Below are positions 15,842-41,042 of a stretch of DNA of 64,000 nt, piece by piece. This stretch comes from Nitzschia sp. DOCU1. Lineage: Eukaryota > Bacillariophyta > Bacillariophyceae > Bacillariales > Bacillariaceae. The notes under the pieces were generated by a model. It saw only the letters and a program-made list of their open reading frames with translations, made no database searches and was not told the origin of the DNA. The DNA lies in the NCBI GenBank assembly GCA_951394045.1, contig OX595989.1, positions 496,001 through 560,000 of the forward strand, given 5' to 3'. The first letter of the stretch is position 1. Each line of letters opens with the position of its first letter. A program made the translations under genes and the position numbers.

Positions 15842-16569
15842 GGTGAAGTATTGTTGTAGCTGGTCGTCGGCGGGGAAGAGATTGTTATTTCATTTTTTGT
15901 GACCTCTGCACACGCGTCGTGTCATTAGATCTTTTGAAACCCGTCCAAGAACTTCGCGAAGATTCGCAAGCTGTTTCAGGTTTCACAAAAGTCTATGGTA
16001 GCATTTGTGTTACCGAGCAGCAATAGAGATGTTGTTGTGATACCTGCATGCAGCGGAAATGCCACAAACTTTCTTCCGCCTGTTGGCAGCATTTTCTCAT
16101 TACAGTTTAAGGAAGTTCTTCGAAGGGACATGAATGACTGCCCACGGACGCAGCGACGTCAGCTTCGTAGAGACCACAACGGACAATCGACAGTATCGTC
16201 CGTCAATAAACGAACACCCCAATCCCGAGGGAGGGCGCGCTCGCCAAAAAATGGCGGGAATGCGTTGAGAGGGGGGTTGGACGCATGTCGCGCCGGCGAA
16301 CCACAATCCCATCGACCCACCCGACCATTCGGAACCAAAGTATGCGAGACATCGGCAGAGCAAAGAAACGAGGAGACTCTTGCGATGACAACCGATACAG
16401 ATTCACCATAATCATCACGCCGCCGCCTTCTATCCCACGAACAACTTTGCTCGCCTTTCATTGACGGGGCTACGCCGCATTCTCTGTAATCATCTCCTTG
16501 TCGCTCGAGTAGAGCATCAGCGGTGTAAAGAGCTGCCGTCGCTACAAAAGTTCCAGAAACGCGATTAGC
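15842..16569. other. Divergent intergenic region with an E2F-like box
   Basis: 728 bases between two divergent genes. A frame of 138 codons at 15995-16411 has no recognisable domain and is not called. AAAATGGCGGGAA at about 16248-16260 resembles an E2F site, about 310 bases before the next ATG. Confidence 0.3.
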
Positions 16570-17715
16570 ATGGTGTTTTCCCTGTTTTCTGATTCCGCTA
16601 ATACTGGCGGTGGTGCTGTACTGCGAGACCTAACGTATTTGGATGAAGACGACGAGTTGTCGTTTGAAAATGAGCTCCTCAGTCGATCCGCAGAAGTGAG
16701 CTGGCTCGCTGTCTTAAGCGTCGCCTTTGGCTTGATGGCCATTTTGAACATTCGAGTCTCCAGTGCTTCGCAAGCCTTTTACGAGTGGAACGCCATTCGA
16801 TTGATTTTGCCTGGCATTCAATGGGTGCTGGCAATGGATTGTGCAACGTTGGCGGCAGATCGAGCCATGACCACCCAAACGTCTCAAGATGGTGGTGTAG
16901 CAAGCCAGTGGGCGATCGCCATGTACATGCTGGAAGCCACTGTTGCTCCAGGGATCTTTCTGAGTACCTTTGTCATTACCTTTCTTGCGTATCGAAATCG
17001 TTCCATTCCGTTCTGTATGGTAACCCGGGGGCCAGGGAGAAATGATTCGCATTTGACAGGGAATACAATGGCACAAAATTCAGATGATTTGGAAGGAGTG
17101 GGTGATGGAGGCAATGGACTTTCTCTCGGACTTCAAACTCTCATTCGACCGGCCACAATGGTGGCCATCATGAGACTATTTGCCACGTTTTGTTTCCTAC
17201 TTACCCTGGTGGTCAACTTTGATGTGGTATGGAGCGAAAACGACATGGCGGGGCGGACTGGATGGTCGACGCTCATCAAGGAACCATGGGTACCCTCGGC
17301 CAGCTTTCACGTTTTCTTGAGTCTGCTGCCAATGGCGTTGGTTGGATTCTGCTGTTTGTACTTTAGTCTGCTCCTATGGCGGTACGGCAGCTCGTTCTCA
17401 ATGAAGATATATGCGAGTTTCTTTAATCCTTGGGTCAGCCCCATATTTGGAACCATTTCGTTGCTGATATGTCAATGTTTTGGACCGGATCTCTTCCCGG
17501 TCATGAGTCGGACTGGCATTTGGGTGTATCAGCTTTGCTTTCTAAGAGTCATGTATGAGGTCCGGTACGATATCAAGCAGGCAGGAGACTTGGGTCACTT
17601 TCTGGATGCCTTGGGGGACGACAAGGTGACGGGATCCGTCGCCTCCATGGAGGTGACTGCGAGCGAAAAGTCCTTGTCGCGACAACGATCCAGAGATCTG
17701 GAATCATTACGTTGA
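16570..17715 (+). CDS. Polytopic membrane protein of unknown family
   Basis: 381 residues, single exon, with an acidic cytosolic-looking N-terminus (LDEDDELSFENELL). About six or seven hydrophobic segments are visible, near residues 44-62, 78-96, 113-140, 198-222, 246-270, 285-304 and 310-328. The Gly-rich loop near 165-185 and the Ser/Arg-rich C-terminus are hydrophilic. No transporter motif is recognised. Confidence 0.75.
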   Translation: MVFSLFSDSANTGGGAVLRDLTYLDEDDELSFENELLSRSAEVSWLAVLSVAFGLMAILNIRVSSASQAFYEWNAIRLILPGIQWVLAMDCATLAADRAMTTQTSQDGGVASQWAIAMYMLEATVAPGIFLSTFVITFLAYRNRSIPFCMVTRGPGRNDSHLTGNTMAQNSDDLEGVGDGGNGLSLGLQTLIRPATMVAIMRLFATFCFLLTLVVNFDVVWSENDMAGRTGWSTLIKEPWVPSASFHVFLSLLPMALVGFCCLYFSLLLWRYGSSFSMKIYASFFNPWVSPIFGTISLLICQCFGPDLFPVMSRTGIWVYQLCFLRVMYEVRYDIKQAGDLGHFLDALGDDKVTGSVASMEVTASEKSLSRQRSRDLESLR

Positions 17716-18624
17716 GCCGCGCTGCGCTCCTAGTCTTACTTGTGCATGCCGATAACTTGGGATGGAATTGAAATAGTGGAAGCTGGTACCTGCCGTGAGA
17801 TGGAAGAGGCGTTAGTTGTTAGCCTATCGTTGATATGGCATTGTCTCCGTCTCCTTTCACAGATAGTCGTAAGTTTTCGTTCTATACAAGTGTATTACAT
17901 CTGCAATATTTCTGTATTGTTGTGCTGTTTTGGTAGTTCTGCGAGATTCAAACCTTCTTGTAGAAGCGTATAACTCGGCATTGGACCATCCAATCACTCG
18001 CTACTAGCAGTACTCGCAAGAGGAAATGCGACTACAGCATTCCATGATTCCTTCCACCATGGTGCGGTAACAAGAAAAAAGGCAACTTGAAACGACTCGC
18101 CCGGGTTTCAATGCCGACCAAGACACTACCCCAACAATGAGAAAATCTGGCCATGATCATGTTCGGGGGGCACTCTTGGCTAGTGACTCGGTTGGCCTCC
18201 CTGACTTGTTTCTCGTAGTGTTCCTAGCGACCAACGGTAGCAGTTCTACTAGCCAGCTCGTCTTCTACTCTTTTCATACAAACTATACTACTCAGAGTAC
18301 TATAACGCTTGCCCGGATGTAGTCAGCTCAACACTCTAGAGGTAGACTAGTAGTCAGTAGCGCCAATCAAGAGACTGCTCTCTGTTACTATACTCTTGAA
18401 CAAAGGCACACTACTACCTATAGACCAAACTTGTACAAAAACTAGATACTACTAGTACATTTCAATTTCAACAACCAATCCAGCGAGCGAGCGATGATAG
18501 CAAGCAACCAGTGTTGCAACAGTCCAAAATCGTGTGTTTAAATCGCTCGCTCGCTGGTTAGTGACTCACTCCTTGAGTCTTTTTTTACATTCATTCATTC
18601 GTTTACAATATGATCGATACAGCC
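17716..18624. other. Convergent intergenic region, no gene seen
   Basis: About 900 bases between convergent genes, containing both 3' UTRs. There are many CTAGTAG/ACTACTAG-like words but no gene. Similar CTAGTAG-type words recur in other intergenic parts of the window (around 21240 and 41150). Confidence 0.35.
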
Positions 18625-19617
18625 TTATTCTTCGCGAATCGGTTGCATCGAAGAAGCACTGCTCCGTGAAGAAGTGGCGTTGGTGGCCACAAAGAGTCCC
18701 ACTCGAGACAATTCCTCATCGGCTTCTTCCAGCACCAATACAGGTGGTAGTTCTGCTGTGGAAACTTCTTGTGACGTAATGCCCGCATTGATACTCTGCC
18801 ATAGGATATCCGCGCAACTCGCAAATAGGACACGATACTCGACTGGAATGTTGTAGGTGACGACATTGACAATCGTCCACACCTTGGCATTGGCGACTAG
18901 CAGAGGCCCCAGTTTGGATTGCACTTGGTTGGGAATTTGACGCATCGGCGTGCCACGCAACAAGGCCGGCAAGGGAATATCCCAAAAGGTAAACAACAAG
19001 GGCGAAACAAGGAATTGTTCCAAGAGAATCGAAATGGCAGTACGAGTTGCTCGTTCCGCTAGTAGAGCGCCTGCAATCTCTTCGCTGCTACTACTAGACA
19101 AAGTCCCTGAAGGCATGTGCATGGATTCCATGACGGATCTCGTCATTCCCGTCGATAAAGGTTCCGAATAATCAAACCAGTACGCCCACATGATGCCACC
19201 TCCAATGCCCTTCAAAAAGTAATGAAAGGTTCGCACGGGATCATATGCATAGGCTTCTTCTGGCTGTTCCTTGGCTTCTTCGTATTGCGCAATCACATCT
19301 CCTAGCGTGGCACAAAGAGCACCCGTCATGGCTTGCGTGGGCAAGTAAAAGTTATCCAAACAATACGCGTAGGAATCTCCGATGCATTCCGACCAGGATG
19401 GATCGTACAGTTTCAGGGAAGGAGCTCGCCTAGGCCAGCTCGAGCGGATGCTCGTGTCACCGAAGGGTTGTGGTTTTGTCGGCGCCGTAGTAACAACAAC
19501 AGGAGCAAAGGCATGACATGTCCTGGTGGACACGACTACTACTGTTAATAGTAACCCTCTCAGTAAAGTGTTTTGGTGGGTGGGTAAAAAGCGACATGAT
19601 TCACAACCTTTCTTCAT
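18625..19617 (-). CDS. Mpv17/PMP22-family protein with plastid-type presequence
   Basis: 330 residues, single exon, ATG at 19617. The N-terminus has a hydrophobic signal segment (LLRGLLLTVVVVS) followed by CHAFAPV, an A-F-A-P site like the ASAFAP motif at the signal/transit junction of diatom plastid proteins. The body shows the Mpv17 pattern: YLPTQAMTGALCATLGDVIAQ at the start and KVWTIVNVVTYNIPVEYRVLFASCADILWQS at the end, with four hydrophobic helices. Mpv17/PMP22 proteins sit in organelle membranes (mitochondria, peroxisomes, some plastids). Plastid membrane placement here is inferred from the presequence. Confidence 0.85.
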   Translation of the reverse strand: MKKGCESCRFLPTHQNTLLRGLLLTVVVVSTRTCHAFAPVVVTTAPTKPQPFGDTSIRSSWPRRAPSLKLYDPSWSECIGDSYAYCLDNFYLPTQAMTGALCATLGDVIAQYEEAKEQPEEAYAYDPVRTFHYFLKGIGGGIMWAYWFDYSEPLSTGMTRSVMESMHMPSGTLSSSSSEEIAGALLAERATRTAISILLEQFLVSPLLFTFWDIPLPALLRGTPMRQIPNQVQSKLGPLLVANAKVWTIVNVVTYNIPVEYRVLFASCADILWQSINAGITSQEVSTAELPPVLVLEEADEELSRVGLFVATNATSSRSSASSMQPIREE

Positions 19618-20426
19618 CCAGCCTCCAAGTTTCTACCTTTGGATGGTCAAGCAAAAGCACGCAAACTAAACGATAGAAAAGGAGACTACGAGAGTGTACA
19701 ATGTGTGCTGCAAGTGGCAATCAAGCACACACACGCTGAATGTCTCCACCAAAAGAGGTAGGATGGAGACAAGCAGCCAATAGTTGTAATGATGATGATG
19801 GCAAAAACTTGGTGGAAGTTTTCTCTACACCAGAAATCCTTCCACACGTCGTGATCGCGAAAGGAAAGAACACTGACGCGATGCACCACGTAAGGCGGAT
19901 CTCGGAGATTCCGATCCGTCATTCATTCGACCAAAAGACCCACGACACGAAATTCGGGCGTTACGGATGGGGTGCGCCATACTCACACGAAGGCAATTCT
20001 CCAAATTTTTCAAAGCCGGCGCGCTCGCCCTGACGTGGTCTCGAATTTGGGTGCCACGCCGACCACACAAAAGAATTCTTTTTTCAAGTCGAACAAGTCA
20101 AGGAGTTCTTTCTCCGTTCGTGAGACAGACAGACCAACTCGGAGTGGACAATACAGTCCATTGAATCGAATTGAATGGATCGGTCGAGTCGAGTCGAGTC
20201 CATCGTCGTTCGTGCGCGCGCCCTTCCTCTATTTCTTTCGCGCCAAACTTGGCGGTGGCACAAGTCGTGCAATGGATCGTATCCAGCCTCTTTTCTCACA
20301 ATTTCAAGACTCGACGGGGATTTTGCGATTCCTCACCAAATCCTTGCATTCCTAGAGTAGTGGCTAACAACCACAACATGCCATTATTCTCTTTACAATC
20401 AACAACAACCACCAAACCAAGCCAAC
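19618..20426. other. Divergent intergenic region
   Basis: 809 bases between the Mpv17-like gene and the next gene on the other strand. No supported gene. It holds the E2F-type palindromic site listed separately at 20236-20247. Confidence 0.35.
20236..20247. promoter_or_regulatory. E2F-type palindromic site
   Basis: TTTCGCGCCAAA matches the full E2F/DP consensus TTTSGCGCSAAA and lies about 180 bases before the ATG at 20427. Function is inferred only. Confidence 0.4.
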
Positions 20427-21131
20427 ATGACAAACTCTATCTTTTCCAAAGCAGGAAGTGTGGCTTCGTCGATAGGCGGCGGGCAGCACATCTACAATAA
20501 AGTAGTACTGCCAGCAAGTTATTGGGGTAAAGATATTACGGCACAAACTTTGGGATGTGGGGTGGATTTGAGAAAAGTGGAATTTCAAGCCATCGGGGAC
20601 AGCAATACCAACACAACAACGTCCTTGGATGTCTTTGTATTTCCATTGCCGGTATTCTGTAACGATCACGAACTCCAAGACTGTGATTTGGCAATGATCG
20701 GAATCGGCATGACCAAACATGATGAGCACGGCAAGCCATACTGGGATCTTTGCAATGACGAGGGATATATTCACTTGAGTGGATGGTATTCAGGATATCA
20801 TACTTCTATTGATATTATATCCTCAGAGGCGCCGACCACTATTCCACATGGATGGGTGCCTCCTTCGGAACGCGATGGCCGTACCTTCCAGACTCTGTTT
20901 GGCAATTGCGATCCAGACAGTCGTCCCGTTCAAATCTCGGGCAAGGTCGACTTTCAATGTTTAGCAGATACAACGTCAACGAATGCAGAATACGTGCCAG
21001 TTCCGTATCCGTTGGTGTCGTTCTTGGTATTTTTGCTGTGCATATTGTGTACGATTCGCATTCGATGTGATAGTCTCTTAGTCATTGGAGACGAAGAGTA
21101 TGTCCAAGCACCTCGAACGGAATATTCATAA
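20427..21131 (+). CDS. Hypothetical protein with one C-terminal TM segment
   Basis: 234 residues. The main part is soluble with several Cys (LGCGVDLRK, VFCNDHELQDCDL, GNCDPDSR, FQCLAD), and a TM segment near 198-216 (PLVSFLVFLLCILCTIRI) is followed by a short tail. No signal peptide is evident. I do not recognise the family. The ATG context (CCAACATGA) is acceptable. Confidence 0.65.
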   Translation: MTNSIFSKAGSVASSIGGGQHIYNKVVLPASYWGKDITAQTLGCGVDLRKVEFQAIGDSNTNTTTSLDVFVFPLPVFCNDHELQDCDLAMIGIGMTKHDEHGKPYWDLCNDEGYIHLSGWYSGYHTSIDIISSEAPTTIPHGWVPPSERDGRTFQTLFGNCDPDSRPVQISGKVDFQCLADTTSTNAEYVPVPYPLVSFLVFLLCILCTIRIRCDSLLVIGDEEYVQAPRTEYS

Positions 21132-21329
21132 TGCTAAATTTTGAAACTAGAATAACCGCACGTTCTACCGTACTGTGGCCGGTCACATCTCGGGTAACGA
21201 AGTGCAGCTAGTAACGTAGCGTTGAGAACGCACTATCCAGCTAGGAAGTGCTAGCTACTACTAGATACTAGATACTGCTACTAGCTTGGTCACGGATTAC
21301 AGCTATATGATCTGCAAGTGACTACTATA

Positions 21330-22571
21330 TTACAACAATCCCGACAAATCCTTCATCATGGCCGATGCATCATCGACTTCCATAACTTGCCATCGACGTA
21401 CGCATCCACCTGAAACCACAGTTTGACAGAATATATCCCCTTGTTGGCGTTCACTCTTCTTGTCAGTAGTAGTAGCAGCAGCCGACGCTTCTTGACTTAG
21501 CGTGCTACACAAATCGGGCCCAGATCCCAACAGGTTGCAACCGACAAGGCGTGGATCGGTAGAGTACAATATCTTCCATTGCACCGTCGTTTCAGAAGAA
21601 CCATTAGATACTGGAATGATTTCTCCAAAGACACAAACGTAGGTTCCGACAATTGCAAGAATAGATTCCATCGAAGCTTTTGAATTCTCCTCCCCAAGCA
21701 GACTGTGGACGGCTTGTTCCAATTTCTTTCCGACACATTGTTGCACTTGCACACTTTTCGGAGCACAGTTCAATTGTTCCGCACTTTCCGCGGTTCTAGG
21801 TCGTCCAATTGCATAGGCAAAATACTTGCCCGTTCGGACCCAATACCCGGTTCGTTCGACTCCGTCTTCTGTCAATAGTTGACATGCCCAATACGGTCCT
21901 TGTTCACTCCCCGGCAAACGATGCCATCCTTCGGCATAACTCCCATCGTCTCCTGTTTCACGCAAATCAATACTCCCATCTGGGTTGGGTGGACCCGAAA
22001 CACAAACTCCAATATCCAAACCACCCGATGGTGGTTGATAATCCATATGGCGTTTCCAAAAACAAGTACACAATGGCAAGGCTCCCTCTTCTTTGGACGA
22101 AGAAGCTGCCTGGTCGGCCAAGTCTGCCAAAACCTGGTCTTTCGCCAAGGCTTGTTTGGAATCAGTCGTGTCGCCTAAACGAAATTCGAGAATTCCAGCA
22201 AAGGATTTTTGACGCAAAAGGATAGACAGGACATTGTCGTTGTCATCGTCCGACAGTGGTAAACTCATTCCTCGGGCTTGCAAGGCAGAAGGGTCTTTAG
22301 CTATCTTGCTGTCACTTTGTCGTCCCGGCGATCCCTTGGGAAGCCGAATGTCGACATAAATGCCACTTTTGGGTGCTTGCGTCCAAAAGACCAGAGTCTC
22401 ACGATCGGCGTTGGCAGCGTCACCAATGGGATCTTCTTCGAATTGTCGTTGCCAAACGCCGCGAACGGTTTCTGTCGTCCTCATGGTGGAAATGGCGTCG
22501 CTACTTTGAGAGTTGCAAGAGGCTATCCAGAACCAAACCCCCACTATTGATGGAATGGCAGCAAGCCTCAT
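21330..22571 (-). CDS. HRI1-like protein with signal peptide
   Basis: 413 residues from the ATG at 22571 (MRLAAIPSIVGVWFWIASC), which gives a signal peptide. The two-part beta-rich pattern resembles fungal/algal HRI1-like proteins: VWQRQFEED...LVFWTQAPKSGIYVDIRLP in the first half and CFWKRHMDYQPPSGGLDIGVC...GYWVRTGKYFAYAIGRP in the second. The match is by pattern memory and only moderate. Function in the family is poorly known. The gene faces the next gene across about 250 bases, probably a shared promoter. Confidence 0.65.
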   Translation of the reverse strand: MRLAAIPSIVGVWFWIASCNSQSSDAISTMRTTETVRGVWQRQFEEDPIGDAANADRETLVFWTQAPKSGIYVDIRLPKGSPGRQSDSKIAKDPSALQARGMSLPLSDDDNDNVLSILLRQKSFAGILEFRLGDTTDSKQALAKDQVLADLADQAASSSKEEGALPLCTCFWKRHMDYQPPSGGLDIGVCVSGPPNPDGSIDLRETGDDGSYAEGWHRLPGSEQGPYWACQLLTEDGVERTGYWVRTGKYFAYAIGRPRTAESAEQLNCAPKSVQVQQCVGKKLEQAVHSLLGEENSKASMESILAIVGTYVCVFGEIIPVSNGSSETTVQWKILYSTDPRLVGCNLLGSGPDLCSTLSQEASAAATTTDKKSERQQGDIFCQTVVSGGCVRRWQVMEVDDASAMMKDLSGLL

Positions 22572-27602: not shown

Positions 27603-27668
27603 ATGCGTGGATCCAGATCGATAAATTTCACACCTGGCCTTCTAAAATCTCTCCCTGAAGCCGATTGC
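27603..27668 (+). pseudogene. 5' coding fragment of the gene interrupted by the transposon
   Basis: An ATG at 27603 opens 22 codons (beginning MRGSRSINFTPG, ending LPEADC) with no stop up to the transposon edge. If the element (27671-38329) and one of the two flanking AT dinucleotides are removed, this frame runs straight into ATG TGG ACC GAT at 38330 and the long downstream exon. Other joins tried (no AT removed, or CAT removed on both sides) break the frame. This is strong positional evidence that the fragment is the true N-terminus of the 38330 gene. Confidence 0.75.
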
Positions 27669-27670
27669 AT

Positions 27671-27689
27671 CAGAGGGCCGGCAAATGCA
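27671..27689 (+). repeat. Left terminal inverted repeat
   Basis: CAGAGGGCCGGCAAATGCA; matches the reverse complement of 38311-38329 at 18 of 19 positions. Preceded by AT (27669-27670). Confidence 0.88.
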
Positions 27690-28065
27690 CACCCCCATAA
27701 TTTCAATTCTACCCCCTTTCCATGCCAGCATATTCTTGATACATATGCCTGCACTTGACATCGGCTCCAAATCCATATTAAGCCAGCCCTAAATGCGGCA
27801 TATTCCGTGGCGAATATTCACCTCCAAAGTAGAATGCTGCATCCAAATTCACAACTAATGCAGCATCCCCATGTAAACATCTACATCAATGAAGCAGAAT
27901 GCAATATCCAGACTCCACTTCCGTTATGCACACCCCGCACCCCCGCCATACCACCTTCCAATCTCATGTTAGCCTTCAATCTGTATCCATCAACACTAAA
28001 CCCCACTTTGTGTACCTCATTCCCATGATTCAACCAACAATGCCCCCCCCCTAGGCATGACAATA

Positions 28066-28185
28066 CCTCAATGCTGGAGGGGATCCCCACAATCCAATGT
28101 TGGTTCTCAAGTTTTCGCATCATCGCCTCAATGCTGGACCCCATACCAACAATCCAATGCCGGTCCTCAAGTTTCACCCCTCTTG
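28066..28185. repeat. Two tandem copies of a 60-bp repeat
   Basis: Both copies start with CCTCAATGCTGGA, contain ACAATCCAATG and end near CTCAAGTTT; the period is 60. Part of a third copy seems to lie just upstream. On the minus strand the repeat is in frame as 20-residue units (HWIVG..SSIE) within a 98-codon frame at 27881-28177, so it could be coding. Confidence 0.7.
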
Positions 28186-28266
28186 CATAACCATTCTAAT
28201 CTAACCATAATGCTAATCCTGAACAGTCAAACATTCCTTTCCATCTCCATTTATCATTATAGAACT

Positions 28267-29379
28267 CTACACACCCACATCCATTAGCCGCATAAGTTTT
28301 GACATTCCATTTCTCACCTCCACTCGTCCTGCAAACTTCCTCTTGCTCTTACCCAAATCTTTCCTCTGTACTAATTTTTTCACTCTTTCATCAAAGGACT
28401 TCCTACTTCCCAACGCCAGTCTTTGTCTCTCCAGCACCGCAAAAACCAGATTGTACAATACCATAGCCTCATCCGACCATCCCGAATACTTGCCAGTACC
28501 CCTGGAGCAATCGGTGAAGCGGGAAGGAACCCCAGCACTACTTGGAGTTGCAGCCGTCAACCCACTAGTCAAAGTGGCACTATCTTCATTTCCCCACTTC
28601 CAGTATTCGTTCATGAATTTGTCATAGTTGTTCATATACAGCAACACAGCAAAACTTTCCATTGGTACTTCCACATATTCACTCAACAACTCCCAATGCG
28701 ACCTTCCATATCTCCTCTGCCCTCTCCCGCCTGCATCTCTTTCAACAAAAACACTGACAAACTCAGCCCAGAACCTGGCATATTCCTCCTTACCCACACC
28801 CTCACCCAGACCCGTTCTTGACCAACGTTGTATCTTAACCTCATCAAACTCATCTTCCTCCAAATCCTGCCCCTCCTGCGCATCCGCTTCCTGCTCTGTG
28901 CCGGACGACCCATCAGAGTTGTTAGGTGCAACAGCCAACACTACTGGAAATCCTTAACAACCAAACATTCCCGTTAGTACACGATCTAGGAAAACACCCC
29001 CCATTCTTGAATGGTACTTACTCTGACTGTCCATATCCACTGGTATAAACATCTTTGGATCTGGAGGTTTCACCTTATCACCCTCCTCATTCACCGGTGG
29101 TTTCTCACAGTACTTTCTAAAGGCCACATTCAAGGCATTGTATAGTGTACTTCTTTTCCTTCTAACCGCCTCCTCATAGGAGGAACATCCGACAACAGAC
29201 CAGAAATCCTCTGCATACTGGTCCGGCACACCCACATCCTTACAAGCTGCCCTCTGTGCAACACTACCAAACTGCACGAGAACCATGGAATTAATAAACT
29301 GCATGTGGACAAATGCTTTCTCGTACACAAAGTTTTTGACATCATTTGACCACCTGGGGTAGTAGGTTCCTGCTAGCGC
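28267..29379 (-). CDS. Transposon-carried protein of unknown function, spliced, 5' end open
   Basis: Two exons are frame-consistent: 29022-29379 (after an acceptor CTTAG) and 28267-28952, with intron GTAAGT...GTTAAG between them. At least one more 5' exon must exist, perhaps near 29745-29880, where a frame ending RWGFGK meets a GTATGT donor; the phase of that join did not fit, so it is not included. The visible 347 residues contain FVYEKAFVHMQFINSMVLVQFG, a basic SYEEAVRRKRSTLYNALNVAFRKYC stretch, an acidic linker, and a block KYSGWSDEAMVLYNLVFAVLERQRL with a basic C-terminus (KKLVQRKDLGKSKRKF). No family is recognised. It may be an element-borne DNA-binding protein. Confidence 0.55.
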
Positions 29380-30278
29380 CTAAGCCGCCGTGACCATACA
29401 ACAACAAGGTCAGTTGTCAATTACTCATATTCTACAAACAGCTATGACAATTTACCTCCTCAGATACGGCCAGTTGTTGTACTGCCATTTTTCAAATAAT
29501 ATTGTGGTTCCGCCTTTCTTATGGTGTTTGCTGCTGCAGGGGGCTGCTCACAACACCACCGCTGCTCACAACACCACCACGGACTGGCAACACCACAAGC
29601 TTTCCCCCCACGTGTTTTCCATTCAAATCACAGGCTTATGTCCATCAATTCAAAAGTATGTCTTCACGACATTACCCTCCTATTAATTTTCTATAGCATT
29701 CAACCTCTATGCCATACTAGCTCAATTCAAAACATACTTTCCAAACCCCCACCGCTCCACTGCTAATTGTACCAGGCAGTCATCCAACGACAAGACCTGC
29801 CTTCTCACCTTTCCTCTTTTTTCCATGGGCATATTTAAAACACCCAAGCCATTTTGGTGTCGCACCACGACACTGTCACAATTTCTCATTGTGTGACCTT
29901 TTTGTAATCTCACAAAAGGGCATATTTGAACTGGGACACCTCAACCGGATTTTCCGTTCCATTTTAAGGATTATTAGTGCCATTCAAAGGATATTATTAG
30001 GACGGTGCAATTCCATTATTGCCTGATATTCTTGGTGTTGTAGGTACTAAAGAAAGGTACGGTAGAAACTGCTTATGTACTTACACCAGATAAAAAGGAA
30101 GCCATAACCGGATTAATGCAACCATGTAATTCGAATGATTTTACGAGGCAAACCTGCGCACAACCCATGATCGCTTGTTAATTTTTCCGTACTAATCTTA
30201 CTGTGTTTTCAATTTTTATAAGCACAGGCTGCTAAATAGCATCACCCTTTAAATTTAATAGGTTTGATCGGCACCATC
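29380..30278. other. Transposon-internal region with candidate 5' exon and repeat motif
   Basis: Contains a minus-strand open stretch at about 29745-29913 (includes MEKRGKVRRQVLSLDDCLVQLAVERW) and, at 29887-29930, one copy of a ~44-bp motif (CATTGTGTGACC...GGGCATATT) that recurs at 35762 and 36049. The rest is AT-rich and shows no gene. Confidence 0.4.
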
Positions 30279-31483
30279 ATGCCATCGAACGTTTCAATTC
30301 TCTATCGAAACTTACGACTTTTGTTGCCGTCATTGTCCCCTTCCTCCCTAATAGTGGCAATGTCAATGCCACCATTACCACCGGCCCTACCTTTAAAGGT
30401 GTCCCTTCTCATCGGCAGCTACTGGGACTGCATGCCCTACTTGGAGAGAATGATATTATATCGCGGAGTTGTAAAATTTTGTTACATTGACATCAAAGAG
30501 TCCACGATCAAAGAATGGGAGGAGCTTCTATCTGTCCACCCATGGCTAGGGAAATATCCTATTGAGCTTAAATTCACCAACCCTGCGGGCGGCGGTGCTC
30601 CACGTGGTGGTGGTCCTCCATCTCGTTTTGCAACTTTAATGAAATACTTTCCATCCTTACAGACCATATCTCTACTGGATGGCGTCTTGAATCTAAACAA
30701 CGAACAAAAAATAGCATCCTCCCTACTGCAATGCACCCAAATCACACATCTGGAAATAGAATACTCCCACCACATAATGGTTGGCAATTCCCTCCCAAGT
30801 CACCCATGCATTCCCTGCTCTTGGCTACCGGCCTCCCTCGAGCAGCTAATCAAGCTGAAAACATTGTTAGTAGACGGCTACACAATTGGAGGAGCCGGTG
30901 GATTAAGATTTCTTCGTTCCATTTCAAAGCTCGCAAACCTGAACACGCTCATTATAAGCAATTGCAAGGTGGGCCAGAGCTGTCGCACGGTACTTGGCTC
31001 CACCCTCCAACACCTACCAAACTTGAAGTCACTACACCTCGACTCTGTCAAACTATCACTGACTGGTGGTCAAGGCCTCTTGCACGGGGTGGTCACGATG
31101 CAAGAGCTTGCATTTCTTGACCTTGGGAGTTGTCGACTTGGTCATAGGGGGTTGGGTTGCATGTCCCTATCCTTTCACTGCCTTCCAAAATTGGCGGTGC
31201 TGATTCTCCAAGACAATAACCTAACATGTGCCGGGGCACACAAGTTACAGAAACATGTCCACCATCTTGTCGCTTTGGAAGAACTCAACTTGGAAGCAAC
31301 AAGATCGGTCCAAATGGCATGCAAGCCATCATGAACTTCATAGAAGGAAATGGTGCATCGGCCCTAAAGTACCTGTCCCTTGGCGATAACTTATTCGCCT
31401 GTGAGAAAAAGGAGGATGTAATGGTACGGTTGCACCGTCATTTGCCAGAGTTGCAAATTAAGTGGAGCCTTGATGTTGTTTAA
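30279..31483 (+). pseudogene. Leucine-rich-repeat protein with a one-base frameshift
   Basis: The frame from the ATG at 30279 encodes about 350 residues with LRRs of ribonuclease-inhibitor style (LANLNTLIISNCKVG, LPNLKSLHLDSVKLS, MQELAFLDLGSCRLG, LPKLAVLILQDNNLT, LVALEELNLE). At about 31291-31294 the frame breaks; the next frame continues the same repeat (GSNKIGPNGMQAIM...ALKYLSLGDNLF) to a stop at 31483. One missing G would explain it. It is either an inactivated copy or a sequencing error. An upstream exon is possible because a TTAATAG acceptor-like site lies just before. The gene is cargo inside the transposon. Confidence 0.7.
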
Positions 31484-31660
31484 TTCTAAAACAACCAGTC
31501 CACTTTTTCTTTTTGGTCCATTCTTTAGTAGAGAATACTTATCAAAAAAAAAGGTGACGGGCACGTGCGTACTTGTCTATTTTGTTCTTAATTTTTGGGT
31601 GGCGAAGTAACGGATTTTTGGGTAGCAAAACACTTCTTTCATCTGCACCACACGACCATC

Positions 31661-32875
31661 ATGGTGAACCCAAAAAGCAAAAGGTTCATGTGCGCAACGT
31701 GCCTCAAATGTTATAAAAGCCTCTCTTCACACTACAACCAGAGTTGGAACTGTAATCCACGAACTAGAGGGCCATCTGCATCTTGGATGGGGGGCCGGCA
31801 AGCATTCGCAGCTGGTTCTCTACTTCAGCAGGTGCCCCCGCCACCCTCACTGGCAGGAGATCAGGAATTCGACAACTGTGGTATTCACATTCCTGACATG
31901 GCAGCTGAAGATGAGGAAGAGAGTGACGACGACGGAGGTGGTAAACCTGCATCTGTTCCAGAACGACGCCTCCTTTCCCGTGTGCGCACACAGCGAGTAT
32001 GCCTCCAGAAACCAACGACAGGTTCCAAAAGAACTAGCAATAAATCCGGCCCACGAGAAAGGTTGGAGAGGTACCAGGGCAAGACAGCTTGTATTCCATC
32101 TTTTGCTTCAGATTTGGACGGTGATAGCACAGATGAGGACAGCAACCACGGGGATGGCTGGGTCATTGAACACAACTTTCACCTAAACCAAAATCCGGAC
32201 AGAAATGTTACCAAGCTCGGCAATTCCACGGCCACCGTGGGCAATAGTTTTGCATTGGCCTCCCAAGTGGACGGTCAACCTGATGCAGAAATGGAGTTGG
32301 GCACCATGGAAGAGAAACTGGCATCTGACCCACCTGAAGACATATCATTCCCGCTCGATATCCAAGATTCCATGGAGTTTGTTGCTAACGCTTCTGATAG
32401 GTCGATGGCGGAGCTTTATGCTCTAACTGACCAGGCTGGTGCTCCACGACATCTTATGGATGACATCATTTCAACAATGAAAAGAGAAAAGGAACAAAGA
32501 AATTTCAGTCCGTTCATGCCAGGTATCACAACGAGAAAGCACTTTTTCAGTAGGGTGTCAAGGAAAACCAGCTATCAACCACCTTTTGGAATTAACATAA
32601 CCTTGGAGTCTGGGCAAAAAGTGGTGGTTAGGAGATTTGACTATCTTAATGACCTAGAGGAGAAGTTGGTTTCAGAGGTGTATTCAAATCTGGACAATAT
32701 CAGGTGCGACATGCGTCACCCCTTTGCCAACATCCCACCCCCGTTGGACGATAAACAGGCACCACATCTCCTCGACTTCAGCTGGTATAGGGATACTTAC
32801 AACTCAAAATTCCTGCCTATGATAGGCGGATCGCAGTTCGATCCCTGGTATCATCTGCTAACCTTATCATTCTAT
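31661..32875 (+). CDS. Large transposon protein with N-terminal zinc-finger-like motif, cut by assembly gap
   Basis: The ATG at 31661 (ATCATGGTG) opens 405 codons that run into the N gap. Residues 11-31 show C-x2-C-x2-C...H...C (CATCLKCYKSLSSHYNQSWNC spans this), a zinc-finger-like start seen in several transposase families. An acidic, low-complexity region (DEEESDDDGGG) and then a more ordered part follow (PPFGINITLESGQKVVVRRF, HLLDFSWYRDTYNSKFLPMIGG). The C-terminal part is missing. It is a candidate transposase by position and style, but no catalytic DDE motif is visible in the part present. Confidence 0.55.
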
Positions 32876-33075
32876 NNNNNNNNNNNNNNNNNNNNNNNNN
32901 NNNNNNNNNNNNNNNNNNNNNNNNNNNNNNNNNNNNNNNNNNNNNNNNNNNNNNNNNNNNNNNNNNNNNNNNNNNNNNNNNNNNNNNNNNNNNNNNNNNN
33001 NNNNNNNNNNNNNNNNNNNNNNNNNNNNNNNNNNNNNNNNNNNNNNNNNNNNNNNNNNNNNNNNNNNNNNNNNNN
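32876..33075. other. Assembly gap of 200 N
   Basis: Exactly 200 unknown bases. The round number suggests a placeholder, so the true size of the gap and of the transposon is unknown. Two genes run into it from opposite sides. Confidence 0.95.
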
Positions 33076-35556
33076 GGAGCCAACAAGGGGCACCTGGCTT
33101 GACAAGAGTTTGGAAATGTTTTCCTCCCTCTTAACATGGTTGCGCCAATCAATCTGTTTTGTCACGACCGTCACTTGGTCTGAATGACCGACCTTTGCTC
33201 CGTTCATTGAGTCGAAATGTAGATATGCGCTACCTATCAAAACCGAAACGGCATCCGAAATTCGTAGACCAGTTGTGCATAGATTCCTTTGTTCCAACGA
33301 AAGAGACACAGGTAAAAGGAAATCTAACCACTCCTTGACCACCTTTAGACGGGTATTGTCATTGCGGCTCTGGCGATCATATTCGGCTAGATGCCCCACC
33401 ATAATCTCCAAAATCTGGTGGTGAGCGATCACATTCAGCCTAAAGAGGGCACTCCGGTAGGAATCGGACAGGATTTTGGAACTTGCGAATAGACCTGGGG
33501 TTGCGACACCAACCCCATTGGCCCGCTTCCAAGACTGGCCTGCTCTTGGACAACTACCATTGTGCTGTGCGATAACATTGCGGAAGGAGTCTATGCTCGA
33601 ATTGTCGATCATCTCGTCTGCATGCGAGAGAAGGCTGTCCATCGCCCAGTCGAGCTGAACCAGGTAGGAGCAGCCGAGCAGGGAAGCAGGCATCTTGATG
33701 AGAGACCCCAGTGCTTTGTCTTGAATACCGGCAACATCATGAGTGTTGATCACACAGGGTCGGTTGCTATTGAGGAACAAATGGTCGACATTGTTTGCCA
33801 TGATTTCTGGTGTAATGTTGTACCTCTTGGCGAACTCTTCTAAGAAGCCTCGGCCCGACACCGTGTGCACCTTCTCTCGCAAACCGAACCAAAGGGTGCA
33901 CGAGATTTTGTCCGATTTTTCAACCCAGTAGCTCTCAGGCCCGAAATTGCTTTTTATCAATTGCTCGTTGGCGAGGCGGAAATTGCGACGCAGCATGGTC
34001 GATGACATCTTTTGGTCCCGTGGTAGAATGGCCAGCGTCCCCTTTGGTCCCGAGGTTGAGTCGGCCATCTTCATTTCTTTTTCGATTGTGCGGTTGACAG
34101 CATCATGATCTCCCTGCATCATCTTGGCCTTTGTTGGGCGATCGTTGTGGCGTGGGTTTGATGGAGGTTTTACAACCCGGTCTTTCTTGGTTTCCCTCTC
34201 TTGCCATTCACAGCTAGAGCCGTCATCACAGCTCTGATTGTCTTCATCGTCATCCGGGATAACACCGGTCCACCAATCGGTCTTCACTGCCCGCTCGACA
34301 GCAGACCTGGCTGGCGAGCGCAATGACAGGGACTGGCAACACATGCGCCTTGGACGCAGGTACAAATGGCAAAAAGGACAAGTCACTTGATCCCTGCTAT
34401 TATTTACAAGGTTGGCTGGTTGTGCCTCAGGCACATCGCTGGCCTCGCGACGACTTAGGCAGAGAAAACGGCACCTTAAAGTAGCATCAGGGAAGCATAG
34501 CGGGAGCAATTCGTAGAGTAGTGAAGGTTTGGTGACGCAGGTAGTCTCCAGGAGTTCTTCCACCTCGCTCCTTAGGACACCGTTGGGCAGTACCCCATCG
34601 TCCTTTCCTAGCAATTTAAGATCCAAGCTGTCGGTAACTCTTTTGAGCACCATCTCCTCTTCCTGATCCGGTCGCAGAAATCGTAAAAGGAAATGACATT
34701 CCAGAAATGGAGTCCAATTCTCGAAGATCCTCTGCAAAATTGGGAAGGAGAGGGGTAGGTACACTCGACCTCCCTTCGGCATCCGGCCCGATGCCAAGTC
34801 AGGAAGGAAACTTTGACAAAAATCTCTGCTAATGATGCCCAACAAATACTCCGATGGCATCCAAATGTAGTCAACGTAAACCTCGTTGAAGATAAGCTCG
34901 GGTGGGAACGGCTTTGCCCGTCGGTAGCTCGTCAGGTCCATGTCATAGTGGAACCTGGAATTGGTAGGATTGCGATTGACAGTGTAAACCCGCCGTTGAA
35001 TTCCATCGTTTTCAGTTGCAACAATCCGCGCTTCATCTCGTATCCGCTGCCGTAGGGAGGATGGTAGCTTTGTCGCCTCTTGGTACAAAGTTTCAATATT
35101 TCGAACATAGCCAGGGCGTTCCATTCCGATGTAGAGGATGTTGTAGTCGCGACGAGGGGGTTTTCGTCCATTACGAAGCCTTCTCATGGACGCATTTTTC
35201 TTTTCCCGGTTACATTTGTACCGAGTTGAAAGTTCGTCGTAAACAAATTGATGTAGTACCAATAGTTTAGGATCGCGGCTGTGGAGGAAGGTTGTTTCTT
35301 GGACATCAAGGGATTCTGCTCGTTGGTTTGCTGTGACGATGATTGTGTCAGCGCCAATCGAGGATGTTGGAAGAAGAACTTTTTTGTTAAAAAAGAACAC
35401 AAGGGCTCGCCGTTGATCGGTCTCTTGTGTGTATACGGCGCTGATTGCACGATAAATAAAGCTCCTCTTAGTAAGGTGGATAGAGGCGACGCCTTGAACA
35501 TCCACAGAAAGGGTCGGCTCGGTTCGACCACCCGAGCGTTTGTAGGATGAGGTCAT
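33076..35556 (-). CDS. Large transposon-encoded protein, C-terminus lost in gap
   Basis: ATG at 35556; 827 codons are visible before the gap. A possible Rossmann-like part lies near residues 135-320: DYNILYIGMERPGYVRNIE, later VDYIWMPSEYL and LPDLASGRMPKGGRVYLPL, which weakly resembles methyltransferase motifs I, IV and VI. A Cys-rich stretch follows (VTCPFCHLYLRPRRMCC), then an acidic linker (DDDEDNQSCDD), then an ordered C-terminal half (KISCTLWFGLREKVHTV...LLGCSYLVQLDWAMDSLLSHADEM). The family is not recognised and the methyltransferase likeness is only a hint. The start faces the oxygenase-like gene across a repeat-containing 650-bp region. Confidence 0.6.
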
Positions 35557-35564
35557 GTTTGGAA

Positions 35565-36096
35565 AGGATTATGTGAGCCTTCAAACGGATTTTCTGTGAT
35601 GGTGTTGGGCTGCTGCCGCATCCTGGACCCTGCATACCAGGATAGAGATGGGTCGATTCGATTCATTCCACTCACCAAAAATGATTTCGTGGTAGGTTTT
35701 CTACACGGGTAGGTGGATTAGACACTTCTGCAGTACTGAGTAAAAACTTGTCTCGACGGCTCATTGTGTGACCGTTTAGAAATCGATGAAAGGGCGTATT
35801 AAATTAATGGGTCTACGATTGGCTGATTTTATTTCCTTTGTATTATCGTGTCTGTGGCGTTGGTTGGATAATCGGTTACCTTGAGAGGATTATGTGTTCC
35901 TTCAAACGGATTTTCTTGACTAGCTCGAATAGTGTGGTGGATAGGACAGTGGGCATATGTGATTATTTTGGCAGCCGTTTTCATTGGTGGGATCAGGTGG
36001 ATAAATCCTCTTTGATTGGATACCGTATTTCAAAAGATGGAACCGGCCCATTGGGTGACCCTTCAGAAATCATTGCATGGGCATATCAAAATTTGA
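35565..36096 (+). repeat. Two diverged ~300-bp direct repeats in a divergent promoter
   Basis: Box 1 (AGGATTATGTG..CCTTCAAACGG and following ATTTTCT) occurs at 35565-35595 and 35886-35916. Box 2 (CATTGTGTGACC or CATTGGGTGACC, then AGAAATC, then GGGC.TAT) occurs at 35762-35805 and 36049-36096. The same order in both copies indicates a duplicated unit. A further copy of box 2 followed by a piece of box 1 (CCGGATTTTC) lies at 29887-29950. Possible binding sites for an element-encoded protein or shared promoter parts. Confidence 0.7.
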
Positions 36097-36205
36097 GAAG
36101 TCTGATTGGTTGTTGTGTTGGAGCCGTTGCTTGGCGAAGAAGGTTGTTGGAATAGAAGCAAAGGGTAAGTGATGAATTTGTTGTGGCAGTCGTTGTAGAT
36201 TGAAA

Positions 36206-37198
36206 ATGGAGGAGGCAGTTGCACCACCCGTCCCAGCTGTGGGGGCACCACAGGATTTTATTACCGATTACCCTAGGCGGTATTTCAATTTCCGTACACA
36301 GGTTGTCTTGCATGGCAAGAGTAAAGGTCGAAGATTGAGGCAGATGTTGCTGCAGAAACGAGAAGAATTGAAAGACCGGTCGCTGAAGCTGGAAGCTGGA
36401 AGAGATGTTGCTCACGAGATTGGTTTCCTTTTCGGCTCATGGATGGCAAACAAGCTGTCAAGCAGGACGGTTAGGCGAGATACAAAGAAAAAGGTGGAGT
36501 TGCCCGATGGTTCTGTCAAATATAGGAGATTGCGATACGATAATTGGGAGGACGAGTTCAAGGATCTTGGGTTTATTTTGTTGCACGATGTTTTCGATGA
36601 AGATGGGCTGACAGCAATCCGCAGTGAATTATTTGATAGGAGCAGGAAGAAGGCTCGACAAGGTGATGAATTCAAGTGGGAGACCATGTTTAACGGAGCG
36701 GTCAGTCGAAAATATCTGTTTGAGCAAAAGGCAAGTGGGCGATGGGGGATAAAGTTGGATGGTTGCCCGGTCACTTCGGGTTTCATCGATGGACTGAAGG
36801 AGGTCATGGGGTGGTTGGAGAGACGGTATTGTGATGTTGCGTACATCAAGCCTTTCAAGAATCAAGCTGCTATTGCCGCTGGGAAGAAGGATCCAGAGTT
36901 GCACGTGGATATGGATACGGACGAGCTCGAGACGACCAGGTGGGGGTGTCCGGAATATCCCATCGTGATATTTTTAAACCTCGACAATGGCAAGATGTTG
37001 AAAATTTGGCATCAGAAACTTGGTGGTACTAGGGGGCGGCACGGAAGTCCCTACCTAATGGAGGTCCCTCCAGGTGCTGTTCTTATATGGGATCCCACCA
37101 AGTTCAAGCATGCTACAGCTGCCATAATGGCAGATCCAACCTATACAGACCCACCTCACCGGGTGAATATATTATTGCATGGAGTGGGAGGATTGTAG
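36206..37198 (+). CDS. Fe(II)/2-oxoglutarate oxygenase-like protein carried by the transposon
   Basis: 330 residues from the ATG at 36206, single exon. The C-terminal half fits a double-stranded beta-helix oxygenase: H233-x-D235 in ELHVDMDTDE, then IVIFLNLDNGKMLKIW, GAVLIWDPTKFKH302A, and R319-V-N in HRVNILLHGVG. The H302 to R319 spacing and the R-x-N resemble AlkB-type enzymes, though TET/JBP or prolyl-hydroxylase relatives cannot be excluded. The N-terminal half is basic and helical and may bind nucleic acid. Family members oxidise nucleic acid bases or protein side chains; the substrate here is unknown. All iron and 2OG residues appear intact. Confidence 0.65.
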   Translation: MEEAVAPPVPAVGAPQDFITDYPRRYFNFRTQVVLHGKSKGRRLRQMLLQKREELKDRSLKLEAGRDVAHEIGFLFGSWMANKLSSRTVRRDTKKKVELPDGSVKYRRLRYDNWEDEFKDLGFILLHDVFDEDGLTAIRSELFDRSRKKARQGDEFKWETMFNGAVSRKYLFEQKASGRWGIKLDGCPVTSGFIDGLKEVMGWLERRYCDVAYIKPFKNQAAIAAGKKDPELHVDMDTDELETTRWGCPEYPIVIFLNLDNGKMLKIWHQKLGGTRGRHGSPYLMEVPPGAVLIWDPTKFKHATAAIMADPTYTDPPHRVNILLHGVGGL

Positions 37199-37305
37199 TA
37201 AATAAATTAAATAAAGAATAGATTGAGCTAGTTCTTTATTACTAGTATTAATGTTGTGGTACTGTCCGGTAGGATCGTTGGAGACCGTTGATTAGTGGAT
37301 GATAC

Positions 37306-37701
37306 TTACTTAGTTTGGTTGGTAGGTGCCACAAAGTTGTGAACTTCTGTTATATGAAGGGACATAGCAAGGCTGCGGTCTGCTTGCATTTGGGGTGTCT
37401 GGTTGATGGCGCTTTCTGGGTTTTTCTTCTTTTGCTGGGCTGTTCCATGAAGCCACTGTGATATAGTAGATTGGTTGGGTTCATGTGGAGTATGAGTCTT
37501 TTTCTTGGTATAAGAAGAGCGCCATTTGCGGTAGTGCGAGCGGACTTTGATTCTTCCCCGTTTGTTGTTGTTCGTGGTGGCCACAGGGGCGGTCATGTCA
37601 CGGAGACGCTTTGCTAATTCCGATAGGGGAAGCTGCGGAAATCCCTCTGCATCGAAGTAGGTATCTTCTGGGTCTTGGGTAATGTTGTTGGGAGTCGGCA
37701 T
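37306..37701 (-). CDS. Small basic transposon protein with PIP-like motif
   Basis: 131 residues, ATG at 37701. Acidic N-terminus (DPEDTYFDAEGFPQLPLSEL), then strongly basic (NNNKRGRIKVRSHYRKWRSSYTKKK). Residues 77-84, Q-S-T-I-S-Q-W-L, followed by KKK, resemble a PCNA-interacting PIP box (Q-x-x-I-x-x-aromatic-aromatic), with W-L in place of two aromatics. No known domain. It lies near the right end of the element and converges with the oxygenase-like gene. Confidence 0.4.
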   Translation of the reverse strand: MPTPNNITQDPEDTYFDAEGFPQLPLSELAKRLRDMTAPVATTNNNKRGRIKVRSHYRKWRSSYTKKKTHTPHEPNQSTISQWLHGTAQQKKKNPESAINQTPQMQADRSLAMSLHITEVHNFVAPTNQTK

Positions 37702-38310
37702 TTGGTGGCAGGCAGTGGGCGATTTGTGTGTAGTAGGAAGTTGAGGAGTGGGTTTTGTCTTTTATGCCACAATGATATTGGGCGTGAAAAACTTGCGGCA
37801 GGGATTACCGTTGATATAGGATTGGCAGTTGATGGGGCGTGTAAGTGAGTTGCAACGGTAGCATTTGAGATGGATTGCTAGATAGAATTTGGAAAGAGGA
37901 TGGGAATTTCACGTTAGAGGGCCAAGTTGGAAGGGCAGTTCCTAAAGTTGAGAGAATCTGGAATTTGCTTATGGGGACTGGGAGGTTGACATAGGAATGC
38001 GGGGGGTTGGTCCAATCTTTATGGTTACATCATAGGTTGGATGCACGGGTAGTCGATGTGGTTCAGGATTAGAGTACTGGGTTGAAAGTGTGGATGATGA
38101 ATGTGAAAGGGAATGTTGGTGCGATGTCGGATTTGAGGGCAGACTTTGAATGTGTGGCATGGATGCGACGTGGTTCGGGAGATGAGGGTGGCATGAGGGG
38201 GGGGGGGATATGATTTGTTCCTAATTGAGGATTGGGGGGCAATATTGTGGAGTGGGATTCTTAAGTCAAATCTATAGGGCATACCTAATTTAAATTCAAT
38301 AGTACGAGAT

Positions 38311-38329
38311 TGCATTTTCCGGCCCTCTG
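38311..38329 (-). repeat. Right terminal inverted repeat
   Basis: On the minus strand it reads CAGAGGGCCGGAAAATGCA, 18/19 identical to the left end. It is followed by AT (38330-38331), which also begins the ATG of the downstream open frame. Confidence 0.88.
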
Positions 38330-41042
38330 ATGTGGACCGATCATTCTGAGTCTGACGGCAACGAAGCAACAAGTTCTATTAGTCCTATCAACATGGAACC
38401 AGATTTCCAAACTCCTCGTCTTCCCTCTCACGTGTTGTCCAGAGAAACCCCACCGAGTTTAGCCCTTTCTCCCGTTGCGGACGAAAACAATGAACCTCAT
38501 GGTCAGAACGCATTTGTGACACGCGTAACTTTTAGTCCCGATCCTGACGGGAATCAGGACCTCGCGGTACACACACGCTCCAGTAGTGCCTCTACGCAGG
38601 TTGAACGAGAAAGCTCCACATCGCCATTGGTCGACGTAAACAAGAATAATAACAACAACAGCTGTGCCACAACAGCAACTACCACCGACGGACACCCCAG
38701 AGTAGGTCACAACAACATCAATAATAGCACTGGACAAATGGACGACGACGGAATACGACCGGAAGCGGCGCCATCGCCTCAGGCACAGCGGGATCCGGAT
38801 GGTGCCCGGCCGAAGCATCGTATCGGCGAAAGTCGCAGATTTTCCGAGGACTTTGGTGAGATGCTAAAGCAGCAACTGGCCAGCAGCGACGAAGCCAACG
38901 GAGGCGAGGCTTCCATTCCCAATGAAGATGCCGTGAGCTCTCCCTCTTCGCCCCCAGGGGCATTGAAGGAGATTTCTATTTCCAAAGTAGTCGAGGACGT
39001 CGATGAAGATGAAGACGATTTGGATAATGTTTTGTCCCCCTCCAATTCCCCACCTCCCGTGGATTCTATGTCTCCGCCGCCCGCGCCCATGAAACCGGCG
39101 TCTGAACACTCTGCTGGACACGAGACGCCGTCTTCCAGGCAAGGGGGGCAACAGCAGCAGCAGCATGATCTAGGAGACTACTCCCCGAATTTTCCGTACA
39201 GAATGGATCCTTCACAGCGACCGCCTTCGAGTATAGATCAACCGCCACAGGAAAGTGATTTATCGGTCTTTTCGATTCATTCTGGATATGCTATGCATGA
39301 CCCCAATGGAGGGATGCCTCCAAGAATAGTGCCGGGTACTATGGTTAGTCCTGCTGCATTTCAGCATGCCTATGCAAATCTTCCTCCCCATATGCAGCAC
39401 CAGGCAGCGCTCCCGACCCTGCAGTCTCAACATACCAATGGATATACGCAACATTATGCAATGCCGCATGCGTACGCTGCTACTGCTCGGGGCTCCATGC
39501 CACCGCAAGTTATCATGGGGCCGCCACAAGTGGGCAAACGCAAAGTGCATTTTCGATTAGTGGAAGATCTGCCCCCACCAGCCAATCGTAGGGGGGGAAT
39601 GCGGCAAAGCTTTTTGTCCTTTCGACGGACGTCGAGAGGGAATCTCATGAGCCCATCACCAATGGTAGAGGAGCCGTCGCCGCAGGAAATGGAACGCGGT
39701 CGTGTGACGGTTGCGTGGTACGAAGGCACCACCACCCTGGAATTGATGGAACATGTACGCAACGCTGTTATTCGAAAGCTAGGATTGTCAGGTACCACCA
39801 AGCTGGCGGAACTGCGTCTTTTGGATGAGAGTTTTGATCCACCAGAAGGTAAGTCATTGCTGTGAAAGAAATACTTTGCATTGAATGTACCAAATGAATG
39901 ACCACTCACTGTATTACCGTCGCATTTCACCTACAGAAATTGTCTTGAGTCCTTATATTCCAAATGGATCTCGCCTATTGCTTCGTTTTACTACTCGCGA
40001 TGCCGGCGGCGACGAGACACCCCCGTATGGACGGCAGGCACCTTACACTGGCGGTGCCCCCGATTCTCCGTCTGCCGCTCCCAGTCCACATGCTTCAGCA
40101 TTGGATCTCCAGGGACTCGGCTTGAACCCCAATCAATTGGCGCTATTGGGTGCTCGCTTGAAAGGATTACAAATGCCCACGATTGATGGCATCACCAGTC
40201 CAGAGAATAGGAGAAATGGCTCGTCTCCCAAAACTTCGAAGCGTGACGCGGCACGCCGTACCAAATCGGATCTTTCGGCGGCGGCCGACAAGGAGGATAT
40301 TGATACCATTAGAGAAGAATCCTCCTCCAGGCACAACAGAGAAGACGACAAGGATAGTGACAAAGACAAGGACGATCAATCGTCCATATTTGAAATGCAG
40401 CCAGTACCTCCCGAAGATGAAATCACAAAGAGCCTCAAGAACATTACCGAGTTGCTCATGTTGGAACGACAAAAGGTGTTTTACAACAATCCCAAACAAC
40501 AAAAGCGTCAAGTCGTTTTTGTTTTGGCGAATTACTTTGTCTTGTTCCTCTCCTTGATTGCCATTTCTGCCGAGATTCAAGCGCGGGCCCCTGGATGGAA
40601 CGCTGCCATTGAACGACATTTGACCAGTGTCAAGAATTGTTCAAGAGATCAAGACGCTTTGTTTGAATGTGTTTCCAATGGCGACTTTTCTGGATTGGTC
40701 GCGTCTGTGGTATTGTGGATTTCTCGTTCGGCGGCTACCAAACGTATTTTCTTGTTTGGCTTTGACTCGCCCCGCAAATTGTGGACAGTCGTGTACGAAA
40801 GTTTGGTGACCGCCGTCTGTTGGGGCTTTAGTTACATTTTTATTCGCCGAGGCATGAATCCAGACACGAATCGCGACGTTTTGAGAAAGTATTGGAAGGA
40901 TGCCGTGTATGGAAGTTTGGCTGGTTTCAATGCAGCGTTTATGAAGATGGTTCTCAAGAATTTGATCCCCCAAGAAGCCATTGAAGACATGGTCCAGGAA
41001 CGGCAATTGAAAATTTTGTCATGGCTTCCCAGTATGCATTAG
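38330..41042 (+). CDS. Host gene split by transposon: ubiquitin-like fold plus C-terminal membrane part
   Basis: Exons 38330-39848 and 39937-41042 (intron GTAAGT...CTACAG) give 874 residues from the ATG touching the transposon edge. The original gene very likely began at 27603 and had 896. Residues 1-400 are disordered (Pro/Ser/Asp/Asn/Gln-rich). Near residues 455-525 a region GRVTVAWYEGTTTLELMEHVRNAVIRKLGL...LAELRLLDESFDPPEEIVLSPYIPNGSRLLLRF looks like a ubiquitin-like beta-grasp. After another acidic linker come three or four membrane segments (VVFVLANYFVLFLSLIAI, GLVASVVLWIS, TAVCWGFSYIFI). The gene can still be translated from the ATG at 38330 if a promoter is available. Function unknown. 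Confidence 0.75.

Follow-up and report, generated by a model that had tools for sequence, protein, structure and literature searches.

Which kind of mobile element places matching inverted ends around several unrelated genes in a Nitzschia genome, and does it belong to a known superfamily? The window, the 64,000-nucleotide stretch analyzed here (C5:496001-560000), was searched together with the whole assembly of 52.1 Mb in 63 contigs, in which silicon transporters are encoded as well (18 Pfam Silic_transp matches), in line with a diatom host. The element very probably represents a giant transposon with CATCA..TGATG termini and a 2-bp target duplication, of which seven near-identical copies bounded by two ends, this one included, are present in the genome. 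It is likely of the Plavaka type and would be moved in a cut-and-paste manner by its own predicted transposase, which is termed ORF A.

Terminal repeats and near-identical copies

The element is bounded by a 22-nt inverted repeat that is 95% complementary between its left end (CATCAGAGGGCCGGCAAATGCA, 27668-27689, plus strand) and its right end (38311-38332, minus strand), which confirms the matching inverted ends of the original prediction. The search of the 19-bp ends across the genome, suggested along with it, yielded 15 exact matches to CAGAGGGCCGGNAAATGCA, compared to a chance expectation of 0.0015 for a random 18-mer. These matches form seven inverted pairs, whose ends are spaced 7.4-22.2 kb apart, and one single end on C1. 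Three additional matches with two mismatches are at chance level, because the reversed-pattern control yields five matches at up to two mismatches. Each of the seven pairs combines a “C” end with an “A” end, named after the base at end position 12, and the orientation of all copies can therefore be assigned.

The copies compared comprise the window copy, the remaining six pairs, and a 10-kb stretch at the lone C1 end; lengths were measured from CAG to CTG. Where a copy has neither N nor a nested insertion or large deletion, it is 15.4-16.0 kb long (15,951 bp on C1, 15,594 bp on C6, and 15,416 bp on C10, the latter free of N). The C12 copy (7,419 bp) is a deletion derivative, the C11 copy (22,218 bp) contains a nested insertion, and the C17 copy (20,378 bp) harbors 200 N beside a repeated segment, which is possibly an assembly fault. 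The window copy measures 10,659 bp and contains a run of 200 N (32876-33075), at the place of which the C10 copy has about 4.95 kb. The spacing of 10.6 kb that was first read between the ends is thus correct in its coordinates, but the length is only apparent because the 200 N replace these ~4.95 kb. The locus exemplifies how an N run can make an element of ~15-16 kb appear 10.6 kb long.

Across their aligned parts, the copies are 99.86-100% identical and differ from the C1 copy by 0-3 substitutions each. Copies this similar, inserted at separate sites and bordered by 2-bp duplications, show that a DNA transposon has moved recently. The shared ends and differing flanks bear out the giant DNA transposon that had been proposed; the term “composite” is not appropriate, as all genes sit within one pair of short terminal repeats.

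The nested insertion of the C11 copy spans 6,259 bp (element coordinates ~15,234-21,492) with AGACGCTT repeated on both sides. It contains open frames of 456 and 1,396 codons and resembles, by eye, a copia-type retrotransposon. The lone copy on C1 (C1:255513 onward), of which one end was read, is identical to the other copies over its first 5 kb. Its ORF A match starts at residue 405, close to where the window copy enters the N run.

Gene content and a sister family

The left subterminal region of the window copy (27684-28213, plus strand) contains ten AATGC repeats in one orientation, a possible protein-binding array with weak statistics. Two adjoining open frames (28267-29379, minus strand) follow that probably represent one spliced gene without a firm family; their DUF6729 match of 16.8 bits is below the cut-off of 27. 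Next come the frame of a leucine-rich-repeat (LRR) protein (30264-31334, plus strand) and the 5′ part of ORF A (31661-32875, plus strand), which encodes a C2HC zinc finger and then a Plavaka-like transposase before it runs into the N. On the other side of the N run lies ORF B (33076-35556, minus strand) with about the N-terminal 828 of its 1,240 residues. A 330-aa dioxygenase-like protein with an HxD...H...R motif (36206-37198, plus strand) and a 151-codon open frame, counted from stop to stop (37306-37761, minus strand), are located toward the right end. The set of LRR, zinc-finger, and oxygenase-like genes in the original prediction is hence recovered, with the zinc-finger protein being the transposase itself, which is read partially in the window because of the N run.

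In the C1 copy, ORF A (P0008) encodes 1,317 aa with the C2HC zinc finger at the start. Transposase residues 431-553 are present in the C1 and C11 copies and absent from the C10 copy, whose junction is shared by the C6 and C17 copies; the N run of the window begins before these residues. ORF B has no family in Pfam or NCBIfam. A protein search with it returned only itself and P0002, which is 47% identical over the full length. It represents a large conserved protein without an assigned function. The LRR frame is present in the seven paired copies; elsewhere in the genome, it has matches of 23-32% identity.

A sister family, here called F2, was found via homologs of the core genes. Its ends read CATCAGGAAAGG, and two elements, one on C5 (15,254 bp, duplication TT) and one on C14 (14,446 bp, duplication TA), carry terminal repeats of ~33 bp starting with CATCAGGAAAGGGAAAATA. 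This 19-mer has 37 exact matches and one match with one mismatch in the genome, compared to none for the reversed control. Of the 37 exact ends, 26 can be grouped into 13 inverted pairs, 1.45-16.5 kb in size, leaving 11 unpaired. A 2-bp duplication accompanies all 13 pairs (11/11 beyond the first two elements), with the pair on C13 also matching over 3 bp.

New here is a syntenic three-gene core common to the two families. The genes for the transposase, ORF B, and the dioxygenase-like protein are arranged alike in both, with their order and their orientation relative to each other retained and the whole mirrored in F2, and the core proteins are 22-33% identical between the families. ORF B ranges from 1,240 to 1,597 aa, and the F2 ORF Bs are 23-24% identical to the one described above. 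The dioxygenase-like protein shares the H, D, H, and R of its motif with three F2-type proteins at 31-33% identity, and in two other relatives the D is replaced by N. Between the F2 elements on C5 and C14, dN/dS amounts to 0.106 for ORF A, 0.210 for ORF B, and 0.284 for the dioxygenase-like gene; in this one F2 pair, the three core genes have therefore been kept by selection. The LRR frame has no match within these two F2 elements.

Some further features of F2 were observed. The left 600 bp, read in ORF A-forward orientation, contain 13 and 15 copies of AATGG in the C5 and C14 elements versus a 95% random maximum of 11, which could be a possible transposase-binding array. Two F2 elements on C11 (1994349-1998966, 4.6 kb, and 2014602-2030087, 15.5 kb) agree in the 10 bases next to each of their ends. 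The site seems to have been duplicated, with one copy probably deleted internally.

Relation to the Plavaka group

Against the Pfam Plavaka profile, the full ORF A reaches 20.7 bits (E 2.8e-4) and the F2 ORF As reach 18.2 and 21.6 bits (E 1.6e-3 and 1.4e-4), all of which are under the curated cut-off of 26.3. An ORF A relative that is 31% identical (P0007) passes this cut-off with 29.1 bits. Genome-wide, eight of ten Plavaka matches are above the cut-off, and each of these eight has an ORF A match no more than 1 kb away. For Plavaka transposases, a D-D-E triad is described, with C(2)C and H(3-4)H motifs located between its second D and the E. In an alignment inspected by eye, D407 is conserved in 5/5 and D515 in 6/6 of the proteins covering these positions, and D515 is the predicted second catalytic aspartate; it falls within the segment that is missing from the C10 copy. 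CxxC and HxxxH are present in the F2 ORF As and not clearly so in ORF A, again judged by eye.

The termini lead to the same group. PlavakaB elements of Agaricomycotina fungi are described with CATCA..TGATG termini and 2- or 3-bp duplications (Kojima 2025, PMC12730594). These termini are found in all seven paired copies, at the lone end, and in all 13 F2 pairs. EnSpm/CACTA elements, which share a broad transposase clade with Plavaka (the CMCT clade), are given CAC..GTG ends and 3-bp duplications in the same source (PMC12730594), whereas CATCA..TGATG and 2 bp are found here; the single 3-bp match is the pair on C13, one of 20. Based on termini, duplication length, and transposase, the elements likely belong to the CACTA-related Plavaka group of the CMCT clade, whose known members are mainly fungal. 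The earlier view that they match no named superfamily is accordingly abandoned.

The resemblance to PlavakaB as described comprises the termini, the 2-bp duplication, the Plavaka-type transposase, and a dioxygenase gene in some of the fungal families, to which the dioxygenase-like gene would correspond. The elements differ from PlavakaB in their diatom host, a full length of 14-16 kb, an ORF B of 1,240-1,597 aa, and the LRR cargo. A further difference is that the dioxygenase-like protein has no match to TET/JBP in a Pfam search; fold tests gave no confirmation for this protein. EnSpm-Plavaka elements have been named in the green alga Auxenochlorella (PMC12633428), likewise a Plavaka type in an alga, in a passage that mentions neither cargo genes nor termini. 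A literature search found no paper on Plavaka elements of diatoms.

The weak direct scores of ORF A and the F2 ORF As, the 22% identity between the transposases of the two families, and a core that includes the giant ORF B and the dioxygenase-like protein would also suit a new superfamily of transposases that lies in the CACTA/Plavaka/Transib clade but outside of Plavaka proper. Such a superfamily is unlikely, since the termini as well as the duplication agree with the published description of PlavakaB (PMC12730594) and relatives of ORF A score above the Plavaka cut-off. Assignment to Plavaka is hence preferred in the following.

A further Plavaka group is present in the genome (C3:3954740, C9:15290, C8:1814843, and others), whose frames reach up to 1,244 aa and score above the Pfam cut-off. 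Among the matches listed in the genome search, no ORF B match lies within 5 kb of its members.

Target site, transposition, and the host gene

The sequence CATCAGAGG...CCTCTGATG is common to the seven pairs, and the one side of the lone end conforms to it. The border of the ends as first drawn is CAT|CAGAGG or its complement in the seven pairs and on the one side of the lone end. Outside of CAT/ATG, a 2-bp duplication is seen in five of the seven copies (TG, TT, GT, AT, and AT), for which the chance is 1.8e-5. The window copy has TG on the left (27666-27667) and on the right (38333-38334), following the 2-bp rule of the 13 F2 pairs. The C1 (TT/CG) and C6 (TA/TC) copies are without a matching duplication, possibly due to recombination or misassembly. 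Both families taken together, the duplication is found in 18 of 20 pairs (chance 4e-20), or in 17 of 19 if the two F2 pairs on C11 with the same flanks are counted as one event. Because these outer dinucleotides match, AT must be assigned to the terminal repeat, with 2 bp of free sequence serving as the target. Of the AT target duplication proposed initially, it stands that AT flanks the ends as then defined; it lies inside of the repeat CATCAGAGG, however, and the duplication is the TG outside.

The CAT...ATG flanks of the seven paired copies could also stem from a target-specific element whose repeats begin with CAGAGGG and that always inserts into CATG with duplication of AT, and the joined window flank is, by inspection, likewise open in frame under this assumption. 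This is very improbable given the match of the dinucleotides outside of CAT/ATG in both families, and the F2 ends differ in sequence yet start with the same CATCA. The preferred reading therefore remains a CATCA..TGATG element with a 2-bp duplication. As a minor observation, the C6 copy is flanked by TA on the left and by TC on the right, and TA is also found outside of the lone C1 end. Both may derive from a single insertion that misassembly or recombination has split in two, or the agreement may be due to chance.

Judged by homology, transposition would start with the binding of the ends, and perhaps also of the AATGC subterminal array, by the zinc finger of ORF A. ORF A would then excise the element by DDE-type cut-and-paste and insert it, with a 2-bp stagger, at nearly any dinucleotide. 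ORF B is most likely an obligate transposition partner, as its conservation and synteny suggest. An anti-silencing role has been proposed for the TET/JBP enzymes of fungal transposons (PMC12730594), and by analogy the dioxygenase-like protein most likely counters silencing by oxidizing methylated bases. The LRR gene would be passenger cargo. The C6, C10, and C17 copies, which are without residues 431-553, probably moved with the help of transposase from fuller copies. An integrated virus or virus-like giant element, as might be considered from the size and the several genes, some of unknown family, is extremely improbable. Among the frames scanned against Pfam, none matched a capsid, polymerase, or packaging family, and viral contigs yielded no confirmed relative of either ORF A or ORF B. 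Short terminal repeats with 2-bp duplications, together with derivatives that arose by internal deletion, are in keeping with a DNA transposon.

Beyond the single Plavaka-type element, a more tentative proposal, to which somewhat less than even confidence is given, is that the two families represent an old diatom lineage of giant Plavaka elements that combines the transposase with an equally large partner of a new family and a dioxygenase that strips silencing marks. Dioxygenase-carrying Plavaka elements are known from fungi (PMC12730594). If the proposal is true, the diatom lineage would be a stable and independent counterpart to this fungal alliance and would use a two-protein transposition machine. 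With a dioxygenase-like gene and the same termini in two diatom families with core proteins 22-33% identical, the alliance of transposon and demethylase would be either old or repeatedly evolved. The near-identical copies make the activity testable in culture.

In the window, the element has probably been inserted behind codon 21 of a host gene, because joining the flanks across a single TG gives a frame that stays open from the start at 27603 into 38333-39865. The first 21 codons of this probable gene correspond to 27603-27665 (plus strand), and its remaining open frame is 38333-39865 (plus strand). The check for an empty site gave none: 868 bases of the right flank are found at a single place in this assembly, with no second allele. 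The TGATG end of the element provides an ATG (38330-38332) that is in frame with the downstream host ORF, and host genes may acquire start codons from such element ends.
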